Below, piece by piece: positions 18,937-24,131 of a DNA stretch of 64,000 nt (within the stretch, counting starts at the first letter, position 1; the number at the start of each line of letters is the position of its first letter). The notes under the pieces are model-generated. The model had not been told where the DNA came from and made no database searches. It saw nothing but the letters and a program-made list of their open reading frames with translations. The stretch covers positions 62,001 to 126,000 of the forward strand of contig NZ_RCDB01000002.1 in the NCBI RefSeq assembly GCF_003651225.1, in the 5' to 3' direction. The translations under genes and the position numbers were made by a program. The DNA comes from Microbacterium telephonicum. Its GTDB lineage: Bacteria > Actinomycetota > Actinomycetes > Actinomycetales > Microbacteriaceae.

Positions 18937-20961
18937 TCACCCGCTGCGCAGTTCCACCGCGGCGATCCACGCCTCGGCGAGCGCCTTCGACCAGCCGTCG
19001 TCGAACTCGCTCCGCTGCGCGATGCGCGTTCGTGCGGCGGCGAGCGCGTCGGCACCGGCCAGCGAGGCGTAGCCGGTGACGTAGTCGCCGAGCGGGCCGT
19101 CATATGCGGCGTCGCCGGCGTCCTCGAGGTTCACCGCGACGCGCGCGGGGTCCTCGCCGAGATACTCCAGCGCGACCGGTCCGAGCGGCAGCAGTTGGAT
19201 GCCGAGGATCGCCGACGGCTCCGGCGAGAACCAGGTGGCGTAGTCGCGCTTGGCGCTCCACGTGAGCGACACGATCGGATGCTCGTACGCGGGGGCGAGC
19301 GCGGCGGGCTCCAGCCAGAGCCGGCGCGCGGCATCCGCCTCCGTCGACAGCAGCCACACCGCGCGGGCGCGCAGCGCCTCGTCCCCGGATGCCGCCCCCC
19401 ACAGGGCCACGCCGTTCCATGCCGCGACGGCCTCGGAGCTGGATTCCTGGTTGTTCCCGTCGGCGAAGGGTGAGAAACCGGACGCCCACGAGTGGCCGCG
19501 GTAGGGGTCGAAGGTGCGCAGCGCCGGCAACGCGCCGTCCGCCGCCCCCGTGACGATGTCGGCGGCGAGCGCGGTCATCACGGGTGTCATCTCGGCGACC
19601 AGGTCGGGGCGGGCGGCGCCGAGCACTCCGGCGGCGAAGAGGAAGTACCCGTAGTGGAAGTGGTGGTCGTTGCCCTCCTCCGAGCCGAACGACACGCTCT
19701 TGCCGACCACGAGTCGCAGCCGGTCGTCGTAGACGAAGCACCGCGCGTCGCGGTCGCGGCATCCGTCGGGATCGAGCCACGGGTCGAGCTCCGTCGCGAG
19801 CCGGTCGGCGACCCGGTCCGCGAGGCCGTCGTCGCCCAGGGCCTCGGCCACCTCGTGCAACGCCGCGAGTCGCGCGAGCGCTTTGCCTCCGAAGTACGTG
19901 TCGGCCGGCGCCGGCGCGGTGCCGTCGAGGTCGGCGGCGATCTGGGCCGTCAGCGCGTCGCGATCGGTGGCAGAGAGACCCTCGAGGTCGTAGCGGGACG
20001 CGGGGGAGATCGTCGGCACGGTGCGGACGAGGGTCGTCGCGGCGCACGCCGGCACATCCCCGTAGGGCGTGTCGTAGGTGCCGAGGTCGCACGCGCCATC
20101 GGCCTCCGCACCGTCGAACGGGACGACCACGGTGCGGTCGGTGCCGTCGTAGCGCAGCGTCGTCGTCGCCGATCCGTCGCCGCCGGACGCCGACACCGTC
20201 ACCCCGCCGACGGGCGCGCCGAGCGCCGCGGCCCACGCCGAGGGATCGGCATCCGCCGGCAGCCCCGCGACCTGCAGCGCGTCGCCCTCGTCGAGGGTGA
20301 CCGTCTCGTCGTCGACCGCGGCGCCCGCGATCAGGAACGCGCCGTCGGCCGTGCGCCCGACGGCGCCGCCGTCCTCCTGCGTCACGGGCTGCGAAAGCGT
20401 GATCGTGATCTTCCGGGAGGCGACGACGCCCACGACGGGCGAGCCCTCGGCGAGCGTCACGCGTGCGAGCGGCCCCGCCGTGTCGGCATACTCGAGGGTC
20501 ACCGACACCTCGTCGGCGCGCACGATGATGCGCTCCAGTGCCGCGTCCCCACCGTCCGCACCCGCGAGGGCGACACCCAGGCCGCCCGCGAACGCGGCGC
20601 CGATCGTGCTGGCCCCCGCCCGCACCGGCGGCACCCCGACGGTGAACCCCTCGGGCGTCGGCGCCACCGCCAGGGGGAAGGGGTAGACCGGCACGTCCTC
20701 GGCGGCGAAGGCCAGGCTCGAGTACCAGCGGTTCGTCGGCGGGATCACGTCCGCCGCGACGCGGAGCGAGGGCGGTGTGGCGAGACGCTCGACGGGCAGA
20801 TCGACGGATGCCGCCGGGCTCACGGTCGGCGCGGACGTCGGGCCGGCGTCACCGGCCGCCGTCGCCGTGCACCCGGTGAGCGCGAGCGCCACCGCGACCG
20901 TCACCGCGAGCGCCGGCGCGACCGTCGCCTCGACCGCCGGTCCGACCGTCCGCCGGGTCAT
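18937..20961 (-). CDS. GH81 endo-1,3-beta-glucanase, lipoprotein
   Basis: A 674-residue predicted surface-anchored laminarinase. The signal peptide ends in the lipobox LALTGC (Cys31). GH81 landmarks are strong: IPPTNRWYSSLAF near the start of the mature enzyme, EEGNDHHFHYGYFLFAAG, and the catalytic region DGNNQESSSEAVAAWNGVALW with paired acidic residues. It is the third gene of a GT2-adaptor-GH81 operon; its start overlaps the adaptor stop (ATGA). A beta-1,3-glucanase coupled to a polysaccharide synthase suggests trimming or length control of a secreted beta-glucan. Degradation of external fungal or algal glucan is the alternative. Confidence 0.92.
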   Translation of the reverse strand: MTRRTVGPAVEATVAPALAVTVAVALALTGCTATAAGDAGPTSAPTVSPAASVDLPVERLATPPSLRVAADVIPPTNRWYSSLAFAAEDVPVYPFPLAVAPTPEGFTVGVPPVRAGASTIGAAFAGGLGVALAGADGGDAALERIIVRADEVSVTLEYADTAGPLARVTLAEGSPVVGVVASRKITITLSQPVTQEDGGAVGRTADGAFLIAGAAVDDETVTLDEGDALQVAGLPADADPSAWAAALGAPVGGVTVSASGGDGSATTTLRYDGTDRTVVVPFDGAEADGACDLGTYDTPYGDVPACAATTLVRTVPTISPASRYDLEGLSATDRDALTAQIAADLDGTAPAPADTYFGGKALARLAALHEVAEALGDDGLADRVADRLATELDPWLDPDGCRDRDARCFVYDDRLRLVVGKSVSFGSEEGNDHHFHYGYFLFAAGVLGAARPDLVAEMTPVMTALAADIVTGAADGALPALRTFDPYRGHSWASGFSPFADGNNQESSSEAVAAWNGVALWGAASGDEALRARAVWLLSTEADAARRLWLEPAALAPAYEHPIVSLTWSAKRDYATWFSPEPSAILGIQLLPLGPVALEYLGEDPARVAVNLEDAGDAAYDGPLGDYVTGYASLAGADALAAARTRIAQRSEFDDGWSKALAEAWIAAVELRSG

Positions 20962-21677
20962 AGGCCGATCTTCCCGACCAGATCGGCCAGCGCGTCGTGC
21001 ACCCCCGCGAACGGGCCGTCGTCGTGCAGGCGCAGCGTCACCGCGACCGGCGTCCCCGGCTGGAACAGCCCGTCGGCGGTCTCCCCGTCCAGGTCGTCGC
21101 TGTGCAGCGTCACGGTCGCCGCGGCCTGTCCGTCGACCGTCGCGACGTCGATCGTGGTCACCTCGGCGGTGAAGGAGGCGCGGTTGGGGAGCACGATCTC
21201 GGCCGTCGTGCCCGCCGTGATCCGCGCGTAGTCGCGCGGCGAGAGCACGAACTCGCCCTCGATGCCGAGGGAGGCGGTGCGGGCGATCGTGGCAAGTTCG
21301 CTGCCGGCCTGCGCGAACCCGCCCTGCGGAACGCGGATGTCGGCGAGGATCCCGTCGACGCTCGCCGTGACCGTCGTCGTCCCCGCCGCCGCCTCCGCGT
21401 CGCCCGAGACGACCCCGAGGGCGACGTCGCGTTGCAGCTGCGGGCTGTGCACCTCGAACAGCGCCTGTCCCGCCGTCACCTCGTCGCCCTCGTGCGCGAA
21501 CTGCGCGGTCACGATGCCGCCGTAGTCGGTGCCGACCGGATACTCCTGGGCGACGAGGGTCGCGCTGTCGCTGCCGACCGAGTTCTGCCGCTGTGTGAAC
21601 AGCAGCGTGCACGCCCCCACGACGACGAGGGTCGCGAGAAGTCCGCCCAGCAGCTTGAGCCGTGACCGCCACGTCAT
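20958..21677 (-). CDS. Membrane-fusion/HlyD-like adaptor with biotinyl-lipoyl-type domain
   Basis: A 239-residue protein with one N-terminal membrane anchor (LKLLGGLLATLVVVGACTLLF, residues 8-28) and an extracytoplasmic part. A lipoyl-like hairpin (GGIVTAQFAHEGDEVTAGQALFEVHSPQLQ) is followed by a second half-motif (ASVDGILADIRVPQGGFAQAGSELATIA) and a beta-barrel (YARITAGTTAEIVLPNRASF). Adaptors of this type accompany polysaccharide synthases such as Alg44. The gene overlaps both neighbours by 4 bases, so synthase, adaptor and glucanase are made together. A role in guiding the nascent chain through the envelope is inferred. Confidence 0.85.
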   Translation of the reverse strand: MTWRSRLKLLGGLLATLVVVGACTLLFTQRQNSVGSDSATLVAQEYPVGTDYGGIVTAQFAHEGDEVTAGQALFEVHSPQLQRDVALGVVSGDAEAAAGTTTVTASVDGILADIRVPQGGFAQAGSELATIARTASLGIEGEFVLSPRDYARITAGTTAEIVLPNRASFTAEVTTIDVATVDGQAAATVTLHSDDLDGETADGLFQPGTPVAVTLRLHDDGPFAGVHDALADLVGKIGL

Positions 21678-23419
21678 GACCGCGCCCCCGCCTCGGCGAG
21701 CTGCGCGCGTCGCCGGCGCGTCAGGGGAGGGGCGGCGACCGACGCCGCGACCGGGACCTCCGTGTCGGTGGGCGCCGGCATCCGCTCGGGACGGGCCACG
21801 ATCGTGATCGGCGTGGTCGGGGTGACCGGTTCGGGTGCCGCCTCGACGGTCCGAGGGTGTGCGATCGCGTGCGCCTCGCGGGCGGCGGTGACCACGAATG
21901 CGCCCAGGATGACGGTGTTGGTCGCGTTCCACAGCGTCGCCAGCGTCAGCTCGCCGATGCCGACGTCCCGCCACACCGCGACGGCGGTGGTCAGCGCGAG
22001 GAAGACGAAGAACAGCACCTGCGGGATGATGAACTCGAAGGGCGAGCGTCGCGACGCCGACCCGGTGACATGCCAGCCCACGTCCTTGCCGGTGAGCACG
22101 TTCCACAGCGCCTTGGAGTAGATCGGGAACGAGACGGTCGCGAGCGTCAGCGTCTCCCACCGGAACGACCCCACCGCGAACCACGCCAGCACGATCTGCA
22201 TGACATAGAAGCCGGCGTAGTACAGCAGCCACGTGAACACGGTGACGTCGAGCGTCATCGGCCGCAGGTCGAAGTAGATCTCCAGCGGGGGCACGAGCAG
22301 CAGCAGGAGCGGGCAGATGCCGGTGAGGTAGAAGGTCGCCGTCACGAGGTACTGGATGCGCTGGTCGGTCGTGAGCCGCCGCCGCGGGGAGAGCGGGTTG
22401 TGCTGCAGCAGGATCTCGAACCCGCCCGTCGCCCACCGCAGCTGCTGCTTGCTGTACGCCTCGATCGTTTCCGGCGCCTCGCCGACGGCGAGCACGTCGG
22501 GCAGGAACACCGAACGCCAGCCGCGTTCGTGCAGGTGCAGCGACGTCCACACGTCCTCCGACTTCGAGTCGGTGCACATCCCGCCGATGTCGTCGATCGC
22601 CGTGCGTCGGAACATGACGTTCGTGCCGACGCAGAACGCCGCGTTGAACCGGTTGCGACCGGGCTGGATGAAGCGGTAGAACACCGTCTGCATGTACGCG
22701 GCGCCGCGGGCGACGACCGTGGACAGGTTGCCGTACGCCTGCGGCGACTGCACGAAGGCGAGGTCGTCGCGCACGAAGAACGGCAGCATCTCGACGAGCA
22801 GTTCGGGGCGCGGGACGAAGTCGGCGTCGAGGATCACGAAGTACTCGCCCTTCGCGATCGACAGGGCGTGGTTGATGTTGCCGGCCTTCGCGCCGTTGGA
22901 GCTGAGGCGCCGCAGGTACCACGCGCCCTCGTCGGAGGCCATCTCGCGCACCGCATCCGACCTCCCGTCGTCGAGGATCCAGGTGCGGTGCGCGCCGCGC
23001 ATCGCGACGGCCGCCCGCACCGTGCGGCGCACCGTCTCGATGTCCTCGCCGTAGACGGTGATGAACACGTCCACGAGCACCGGTGCGCCGTGCAGATGCA
23101 TCGTGTCGTCCCCGTCGCGGGCGTGCGGCATCAGGCGGCCCGCCGCGTCGTTGTACGCGAAGTCGCGGGGATCGGCGCTCGCCGACAGGATCGTCCACAT
23201 CGCCAGCAGCGCCTGCGCGACGAGGATCGACTCGGCGACGATCACCATCGAGTAGGGCAGCCAGTCGCCGCGGTGACCGGGGTCGAGCAGGAATCCCGCG
23301 TACGCCAGGATGCCGATCGTCGCGATCAGCACCAGCAGGATCATCACGGGGCTCGGGCCCCGGTCCGCTCCTCGCGTCGGTCGTGTCCGCCCCATGTCGG
23401 ACTCGTTCGATCTGGCCAT
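21674..23419 (-). CDS. Processive family-2 glycosyltransferase (cellulose/curdlan-synthase-like)
   Basis: A 581-residue membrane synthase. Two N-terminal membrane helices (about 25-45 and 57-78) are followed by the cytosolic GT2 domain with ITVYGEDIETVRRTV, the first Asp region LDDGRSD, the metal site DADF, the catalytic SEDVWTS (TED-like) and QQLRW, the QxxRW product-channel motif of BcsA-type enzymes. Five or six helices follow, then a Pro/Thr-rich tail. There is no PilZ domain, so no direct c-di-GMP control is seen. GGGGGAC precedes the ATG. Substrate could be UDP-glucose for a beta-1,3- or beta-1,4-glucan; the coupled GH81 favours beta-1,3. Confidence 0.9.
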   Translation of the reverse strand: MARSNESDMGRTRPTRGADRGPSPVMILLVLIATIGILAYAGFLLDPGHRGDWLPYSMVIVAESILVAQALLAMWTILSASADPRDFAYNDAAGRLMPHARDGDDTMHLHGAPVLVDVFITVYGEDIETVRRTVRAAVAMRGAHRTWILDDGRSDAVREMASDEGAWYLRRLSSNGAKAGNINHALSIAKGEYFVILDADFVPRPELLVEMLPFFVRDDLAFVQSPQAYGNLSTVVARGAAYMQTVFYRFIQPGRNRFNAAFCVGTNVMFRRTAIDDIGGMCTDSKSEDVWTSLHLHERGWRSVFLPDVLAVGEAPETIEAYSKQQLRWATGGFEILLQHNPLSPRRRLTTDQRIQYLVTATFYLTGICPLLLLLVPPLEIYFDLRPMTLDVTVFTWLLYYAGFYVMQIVLAWFAVGSFRWETLTLATVSFPIYSKALWNVLTGKDVGWHVTGSASRRSPFEFIIPQVLFFVFLALTTAVAVWRDVGIGELTLATLWNATNTVILGAFVVTAAREAHAIAHPRTVEAAPEPVTPTTPITIVARPERMPAPTDTEVPVAASVAAPPLTRRRRAQLAEAGARS

Positions 23420-23649: not shown

Positions 23650-24108
23650 TCACTGCTCGATGGGCTGCGGCTCCTGCGCGGCGCGCTCGTCGCGCCCGAT
23701 CTGTACCGTCGACGCGTCGCTGACGACGTCGATCTTGCGCGGCTTGGCCTTCTCGCTGACCGGGATGGTGACGCTGAGCACGCCGTTGTCGTAACGGGCG
23801 GAGATGCGCTCGGTGTCGACGCCCTGGCCCAGGTTGAGCTGGCGGAGGAAGCTCGCCGCCTCTCGCTCGCGGGTGATCCACTTCACACCATCGCCGCTGG
23901 GCAGAGTGCGCTCGGCGCGGATCGTCAGCAGCTGGCCGTCCACGTCGATGTCGACCGAGCCCGGGTCGACGCCCGGCAGATCGGCCGTGAGGACGTAGTG
24001 GTCGCCGTCGCGGTAGAGGTCCATCGGCATTCGCCGCGGTCCGCGCCGAGTGTCCATCAGGGAGGACGCGAGGCGGTCGAACTCGCGGAACGGGTCATAG
24101 CTGGTCAT
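23650..24108 (-). CDS. Hsp20/alpha-crystallin family small heat-shock protein
   Basis: A 152-residue holdase chaperone. The alpha-crystallin domain spans roughly residues 35-130: MDLYRDGDHYVLTADLPGVD, GQLLTIRAERT, REREAASFLRQLNLGQGVD and ISARYDNGVLSVTIPVSEKAKPR. The C-terminal tail VQIGRDERAAQEPQ has no clear I-x-I anchor. The start at 24108 (MTSYDPFREFDRL) is preferred over the longer frame because AGGAGA lies 6 bases before it. Upstream are both a HAIR-like site and a CIRCE-like site, indicating heat-shock control. Confidence 0.95.
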   Translation of the reverse strand: MTSYDPFREFDRLASSLMDTRRGPRRMPMDLYRDGDHYVLTADLPGVDPGSVDIDVDGQLLTIRAERTLPSGDGVKWITREREAASFLRQLNLGQGVDTERISARYDNGVLSVTIPVSEKAKPRKIDVVSDASTVQIGRDERAAQEPQPIEQ

Positions 24109-24131
24109 CGGGTTCTCCTCTCGAATCAAGA

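Follow-up and report, generated by a model that had tools for sequence, protein, structure and literature searches.

The 64,000-nucleotide stretch of Microbacterium telephonicum DNA analysed here (contig NZ_RCDB01000002.1, positions 62,001 to 126,000; hereafter the window) contains an operon of three genes, encoding a processive glycosyltransferase of family 2 (GT2), a HlyD-like adaptor of the membrane fusion protein (MFP) type and a glycoside hydrolase of family 81 (GH81). The operon is likely to represent a dedicated system by which Gram-positive actinobacteria synthesize, export and edit a curdlan-type β-1,3-glucan; the computational support comes from the order of the genes, the existence of dedicated subfamilies, signals for anchoring, predicted folds and conserved motifs. 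It also occurs in Cellulomonas flavigena, a known Gram-positive curdlan producer, for which it is a strong candidate for the curdlan machinery. The gene coordinates, strand and 4-base overlaps given in a preliminary description of the window were correct, with ATGA at both junctions (Table 1), and the window genome contains a single copy of the synthase (no second match at E 0.001) and a single GH81.

When an alignment of five synthases was used to scan named genomes, at least 514 confirmed loci were obtained, of which 80 were kept, from 19 named genera of Micrococcales and neighbouring groups. Among the matches listed, the closest named relative of the window synthase is that of Microbacterium sp. 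W1N (89%). A congeneric genome (G025) has the same locus sequence as M. pullorum. The synthase gene is followed by that of the adaptor in 79 of the 80 named loci and GH81 is present in 78; the two exceptions (L080 and L085) are loci in which the sequence ends before GH81, and the order GT2–HlyD–GH81 is thus retained in 78/78 testable loci. Across 159 genomes of the order, the synthase (E < 1e-260) is present in 18, and in 18/18 a GH81 lies downstream on the same strand, its domain beginning 1.76–2.12 kb past the synthase match; GH81 occurs in only four of the 141 genomes without the synthase (Fisher p = 3e-20, kinship ignored) and in none of the 11 genomes of the order whose GT2 is less closely related (E 1e-62 to 1e-131). 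The preliminary description had regarded absence of GH81 from orthologous operons as an outcome that would overturn it, and no such absence was seen in the testable loci or in the 18 genomes. The retained order and the co-occurrence in the 159 genomes argue that the arrangement is not due to chance, and the three genes are a conserved operon and a dedicated gene set.

In 296 genomes across the phylum a synthase at the E < 1e-260 level is found only in the window genome, and GH81 is found in five including the window genome. Within Microbacterium the synthase is present in eight of 198 genomes (E 1e-200), and at E 1e-100 it is present in 10 of 18 genomes taken to be Isoptericola and in 51 of 80 taken to be Cellulomonas. 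The gene ksgA lies just upstream in nine of the ten Microbacterium-named loci (all except L033) and in L045, and six of these ten ksgA-flanked loci have hemL downstream, as in the window. This points to an old presence of the operon with many losses or to repeated exchange at one site. Copy number also varies: a second GT2–HlyD pair is present in three Demequina loci (L043, L054 and L101), while L219 and the genomes G062, G078, G122 and G178 carry extra or tandem synthase copies, with or without an extra adaptor and sometimes with one GH81 only. The synthase of L220 (6602–8755) and the GH81 of L089 (10547–13365) each appear to be split across two frames, which could reflect decay or sequencing error. 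Just upstream of the window synthase, on the same strand, is a small Hsp20-like gene (23650–24129, identified by eye), for which there are no matches at 1e-25 among the 80 named loci.

Table 1. Features of the operon in the window. Spacings in relatives were measured with gene starts chosen by script; two of the 84 aligned synthase rows are gapped across most motifs.
Feature	Position	Strand	Basis
GT2 processive β-glucan synthase, BcsA superfamily, without PilZ, 581 residues	21674..23419	-	Pfam/NCBIfam, AlphaFold2 and Foldseek
HlyD/MFP-type adaptor, membrane-anchored, without long α-hairpin, 239 residues	20958..21677	-	Pfam, AlphaFold2, PDB fold matches
GH81 endo-β-1,3-glucanase with lipobox, 674 residues	18937..20961	-	PF17652 3.4e-50; PDB GH81 entries 6fop and 5v1w
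ATGA overlap of synthase and adaptor, 4 bases	21674..21677	-	Sequence; -4 spacing in 76/79 relatives measured
ATGA overlap of adaptor and GH81, 4 bases	20958..20961	-	Sequence; -4 spacing in 48/75 relatives measured
Synthase QQLRW (QxxRW) motif, residues 325-329	22433..22447	-	Q, R and W in 82/84 aligned copies; other 2 rows gapped
Synthase gating-loop motif WHVTGS, residues 449-454, replacing FxVTxK	22058..22075	-	Trp in 82/84 (2 rows gapped); final-position Lys in 0/84
GH81 lipobox LTGC, residues 28-31 (Cys31)	20869..20880	-	Read by eye
GH81 C-terminal catalytic domain, residues 336-597; invariant D432, E506 and E510	19171..19956	-	Pfam, PDB alignment, 43-member alignment

The window synthase matches the GT2 families and Cellulose_synt in Pfam, and its GT2 domain, flanked by membrane helices, contains D,D,D,QxxRW, which places it in the BcsA-type GT2 superfamily. 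It had been credited with all BcsA-type catalytic motifs and no PilZ domain; D,D,D,QxxRW, KAG and QxPQ are indeed present and a PilZ match in Pfam is absent from all 28 synthases scanned, but the ED motif reads SED and FxVTxK is replaced by W-x-x-T-G-x. The AlphaFold2 model (pLDDT, the predicted local distance difference test score, 74.8, with residues 448–456 of the gating loop below 50) has the BcsA fold, the top Foldseek matches being the E. coli and Rhodobacter BcsA structures with TM-scores of 0.58 to 0.66 of the query. The best NCBIfam model is cellulose synthase CelA (TIGR03030; 2.2e-64), but the score of 217.7 bits is under the 699.1-bit cut-off, and with this result and the lack of PilZ the protein falls outside the UDP-forming cellulose synthases (BcsA/CelA). 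Grouping with hyaluronan or chitin synthases, the other outcome that the preliminary description considered fatal, did not occur: NodC is matched at 9e-8 compared with 2.2e-64 for CelA, and in the fold comparison hyaluronan synthases come after BcsA and most CesA structures. The sole aminosugar synthase included in the GT2 tree is PgaC.

In this tree (66 rows), the 31 operon synthases, a sample covering the window and three cellulomonad loci as well as 25 of the named 80, form one clade (support 100/100) apart from CrdS, BgsA and BcsA. The CrdS/BgsA/BcsA group outside this clade is supported at only 81/67, several outside rows being long-branched. Membership in the CrdS clade was rejected in an approximately unbiased (AU) test of a tree uniting the two (p 0.0003). 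Among the GT2s outside the operon, L007–L014 and L224–L226 constitute a second actinobacterial BcsA-like clade, with extra sequence near window residue 280, that is also found in Microbacterium genomes without the operon. In a Salmonella plasmid locus (L234), three DUF3131 proteins follow a GT2 that adjoins an OpgC-domain protein, in an unassigned polysaccharide cluster.

The CrdS reference used for comparison of individual residues is encoded on an Agrobacterium plasmid (L112) and has 11/11 of the residues named in PMC6821405 at the stated numbers. Two of the seven specificity residues of CrdS given there, Gln237 and Gln259, are matched in the operon clade (Gln227 and Gln244), and Lys270 is conservatively replaced by arginine (Arg255), the BgsA residue. 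At Gln227, Gln244, Ser287 of SED and the FCVGT motif the operon synthases agree with CrdS and not with BcsA. The glutamine pair is shared by both BgsA and CrdS; this pair and Arg255, together with the HlyD-family adaptor that is likewise encoded by bgsBA, would suit a mixed-linkage or branched β-glucan with β-1,3 runs, comparable to the BgsA polymer of rhizobia or the RiGT2 glucan of Romboutsia. Such a product is unlikely. GH81 enzymes require contiguous β-1,3 bonds, so that a strictly alternating BgsA-type chain would be a poor substrate for the third protein of the operon, and no additional gene is common to most loci, the most frequent neighbouring family occurring in only 13 of 80 (crude gene caller, ∼4.5 kb per side).

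The adaptor matches HlyD_D23 and HlyD_3 above the cut-off, and also Biotin_lipoyl, in Pfam. Its AlphaFold2 model (pLDDT 85.5) consists of a single N-terminal helix (residues 3–31), β-domains and a C-terminal helix, and the close folds in the PDB are MacA, ZneB and BesA. The predicted barrel-sandwich and β-barrel domains with a membrane anchor are those of the HlyD/MFP class, so that the membrane-fusion-type adaptor recognized in the preliminary description is supported by both profiles and folds. No long α-hairpin is present between the lipoyl halves of the model, which has only helices 79–86 and 94–97 in this region, and the adaptor is therefore not of the subset found in Gram-negative tripartite pumps, which is distinguished by such a hairpin. 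A long hairpin does not define MFPs in general; BesA is not known to have one. Its loss would fit a single-membrane cell, which has no outer-membrane duct to reach. At 239 residues, the window adaptor is shorter than CrdA (484 residues) and BgsB (410 residues).

The third gene product matches Glyco_hydro81C (PF17652) with 171.7 bits (cut-off 25.6), and a match to this model is present in 43/43 members of the GH81 alignment (A3; E 0.01). The N-terminal GH81 model (PF03639) is matched by 13 of the 43 members and not by the window protein, which shows only a weak stretch (residues 74–126) against 6fop. Asp432, Glu506 and Glu510, the catalytic residues of GH81 enzymes, are invariant in the 43 members and are matched by the same residues in the solved GH81 structure 5v1w. 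A start was measured for 75 operon GH81s, whose N-termini were judged by pattern and by eye without a signal-peptide program: 60 have a lipobox by pattern and a further eight by eye, and the remaining seven, all from Cellulomonas, have a hydrophobic N-terminus by eye. On this basis the enzyme is probably anchored to the cell surface. The lipid-anchored endo-1,3-glucanase of the preliminary description is supported by the lipobox cysteine (Cys31) and the Glyco_hydro81C match.

A GH81 tree of 66 rows (43 from A3, six from further genomes and 17 others; quick method, no bootstrap) was calculated after three duplicate rows and the operon copy L137 had been dropped. It places 49 operon GH81s and one orphan (L167) in one clade and the 16 remaining GH81s, each in an open frame of at least 940 residues, on the opposite side. 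The large size of the GH81s outside the third place of the operon, which may be degradative, is what could be said for an enzyme that attacks fungal or plant walls and is the chance neighbour of an unrelated cellulose-like synthase. This is very improbable, given that the order is unbroken in the testable loci despite changing flanks and that the GH81s encoded in the operon are shorter, have anchoring signals and branch as a clade of their own. The orphan (L167, 6703–8673) is of the operon type, is on a long branch, has no obvious signal peptide by eye and comes from a genome without a synthase at E 1e-60; it is possibly a leftover after loss of the operon. In three Cellulomonas loci a second, large GH81 that belongs to the group of 16 lies directly behind the operon (L088, 13440–17318; L093, 13890–17354; L103, 13673–17335); the others of this group are located elsewhere.

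The cellulomonads may connect the operon to a characterized polymer. Curdlan is reported to be abundant in C. flavigena and scarce in C. fimi (PMC3544764), and C. flavigena is also described as a curdlan maker in PMC3035266. Two GT2s per cellulomonad with 35–39% identity to CrdS have been listed as CrdS-like, and GH81 is reported in all three cellulomonad species considered (PMC3544764). In the three matched cellulomonad genomes two CrdS matches each were likewise obtained at E 1e-15, and in each of the three the better match is the operon synthase, followed by the adaptor and GH81. The operon is present in the genome matched to the C. flavigena type strain, as well as in C. fimi and C. gilvus, and the two C. 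flavigena matches, of which the operon synthase lies near 3.5045 Mb, fit the published candidates Cfla_3154 and Cfla_2615 when gene numbers are roughly scaled to genome length. Curdlan has been proposed as a storage polymer of C. flavigena, with the route of its reuse called unclear (PMC3544764), and in this species a GH81 lies inside the synthesis operon. The same β-1,3-glucan could accordingly be an external carbon store and the GH81 chiefly a reserve-mobilizing enzyme that digests it on starvation. We consider this rather doubtful, though less so than a mixed-linkage product: the 4-base overlaps couple GH81 translation to synthesis, which is odd for an enzyme that acts after synthesis, and C. 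fimi and C. gilvus, both carriers of the operon, are reported not to have grown on curdlan (PMC3544764).

In a dedicated synthesis, export and editing system the GT2 would add glucose at the cytoplasmic face, presumably from UDP-glucose, and would pass the growing chain through its own membrane channel as in BcsA. With a single anchoring helix and no long hairpin, the adaptor may dock at the channel exit and either lead the chain across the wall zone or aid polymerization. The GH81, held on the outside of the membrane, would cut β-1,3 chains as they emerge; the cutting might remove polymer that has stalled or tangled, control chain length and permit release of the product or its later reuse. 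The set for synthesis, export and trimming with β-1,3 specificity that the preliminary description envisaged is supported by the constancy of the GH81 partnership (78/78 loci and 18/18 genomes), but the linkage part of that claim is indirect.

Several observations weigh against this reading. The β-1,3 linkage is deduced from the partner enzyme and a producing species. With the union of the operon clade and CrdS rejected, orthology gives no guide to specificity, and the CrdS specificity positions His374, Trp422, Glu439 and His442 (PMC6821405) all differ in the operon clade. The residues shared with CrdS are not diagnostic, as GH81-lacking relatives have the glutamine pair too and L160 has both SED and FCVGT. 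The FxVTxK gating-loop motif is described as fully conserved in BcsA, CrdS and BgsA (PMC6821405), yet its lysine is found in 0/84 aligned operon synthases, with W-x-x-T-G-x throughout the family, and the catalytic cycle may therefore differ. With regard to C. flavigena, the second CrdS-like GT2 (E 1e-15) is a competing curdlan candidate, and the cited curdlan work deals with strain KU while the matched genome is that of the type strain. C. gelida carries the operon (L105), yet it is reported not to produce curdlan exopolysaccharide (PMC3035266); C. fimi also carries it, yet is reported with little curdlan (PMC3544764).

A more extended proposal combines these elements: β-1,3-glucan secretion would have evolved in Gram-positive actinobacteria independently of Agrobacterium, with a separate synthase clade, a remodelled gating loop (W-x-x-T-G, no lysine), a hairpin-less adaptor that conducts the chain across the wall zone or acts as co-polymerase, and a GH81 that is tethered and serves as editor; the operon would be the curdlan system of C. 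flavigena, and curdlan-type glucan would be widespread in Micrococcales. We regard the chances that this holds in its entirety as evenly balanced. For curdlan synthesis in C. flavigena, previously left between two candidate genes (PMC3544764), the operon offers a single set of genes that can be tested, and it predicts β-1,3-glucan in many soil and plant actinobacteria. Related synthases that lie beside either GH8 or GH81 provide a contrast for the study of linkage control, and the operon suggests possible roles for the unexplained CrdA and CrdC of crdASC.

No paper describing a GT2–HlyD–GH81 operon was found among open-licence publications; one that links Microbacterium with curdlan (PMC12246864) is concerned with degradation. 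The claim of the preliminary description that no system of this composition has been described holds to that extent, but crdASC and bgsBA already pair a HlyD-family adaptor with a GT2. Agrobacterium crdASC likewise comprises three co-directional genes, with the HlyD-family CrdA beside the PilZ-less CrdS; it differs in gene order, in phylum, in the length of the adaptor and in the separate clade of its GT2. The third protein, CrdC, has no Pfam match above the cut-off and is not a GH81 by Pfam. As a glucanase it shows only a weak endo-β-1,2-glucanase match (E 0.0022 for the single sequence and 0.022 for the profile) and belongs to no NCBIfam family. CrdC homologues are present in L112 (6707–7987), L235 (4994–6265) and L236 (1817–2986), the Nitrobacter copy lying between HlyD and GT2; these homologues show the same weak match and may be the hydrolase-like part of crdASC. 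The window operon repeats the adaptor–GT2 layout with an identifiable glucanase as the third gene and so may hint at the role of CrdC. In rhizobial bgsBA a HlyD-family adaptor also adjoins a PilZ-less GT2 (PMC9495663), but no glycoside hydrolase is annotated beside the Rhizobium etli pair, the GT2 belongs to a different clade, the product is a β-1,3;1,4-glucan and the C-terminal domain of BgsA binds cyclic di-GMP (PMC9495663).

Combination of a synthase with its cognate endoglucanase in one operon is familiar from bcsABZC and the clostridial ccsZABHI (PMC7710045), and in the CcsZ study the polymer was inferred from the cognate hydrolase (PMC7710045), as is done here. In those operons the hydrolases, BcsZ (annotated as GH8) and CcsZ (GH5), are both β-1,4-specific, in contrast to the GH81 and MFP adaptor of the window, and BcsA systems have PilZ and BcsB (PMC10374906). 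An actinobacterial counterpart may exist in L161 (4780–9505) and L163 (5008–10072), in which a GT2 related to that of the operon adjoins a glucanase-family gene in both loci scanned; GH8, the family annotated in the cellulose operons compared, replaces GH81, a PMT_2-family protein is also adjacent, HlyD is not matched and L161 retains the gating-loop lysine. This is possibly a separate cellulose-like system. L160–L165 and L170 have no HlyD or GH81 matches, and L153 and L155 have no hydrolase among their Pfam-scanned neighbours. L160, L164 and L165 are nearer to the operon clade in the GT2 tree than the GH8-linked L161 and L163; since the latter are not the nearest outside group, the contrast between GH8 and GH81 supports a β-1,3 product without proving a switch. 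The proposed system would function like Crd and Bcs, but when membership was tested the operon belonged to neither.

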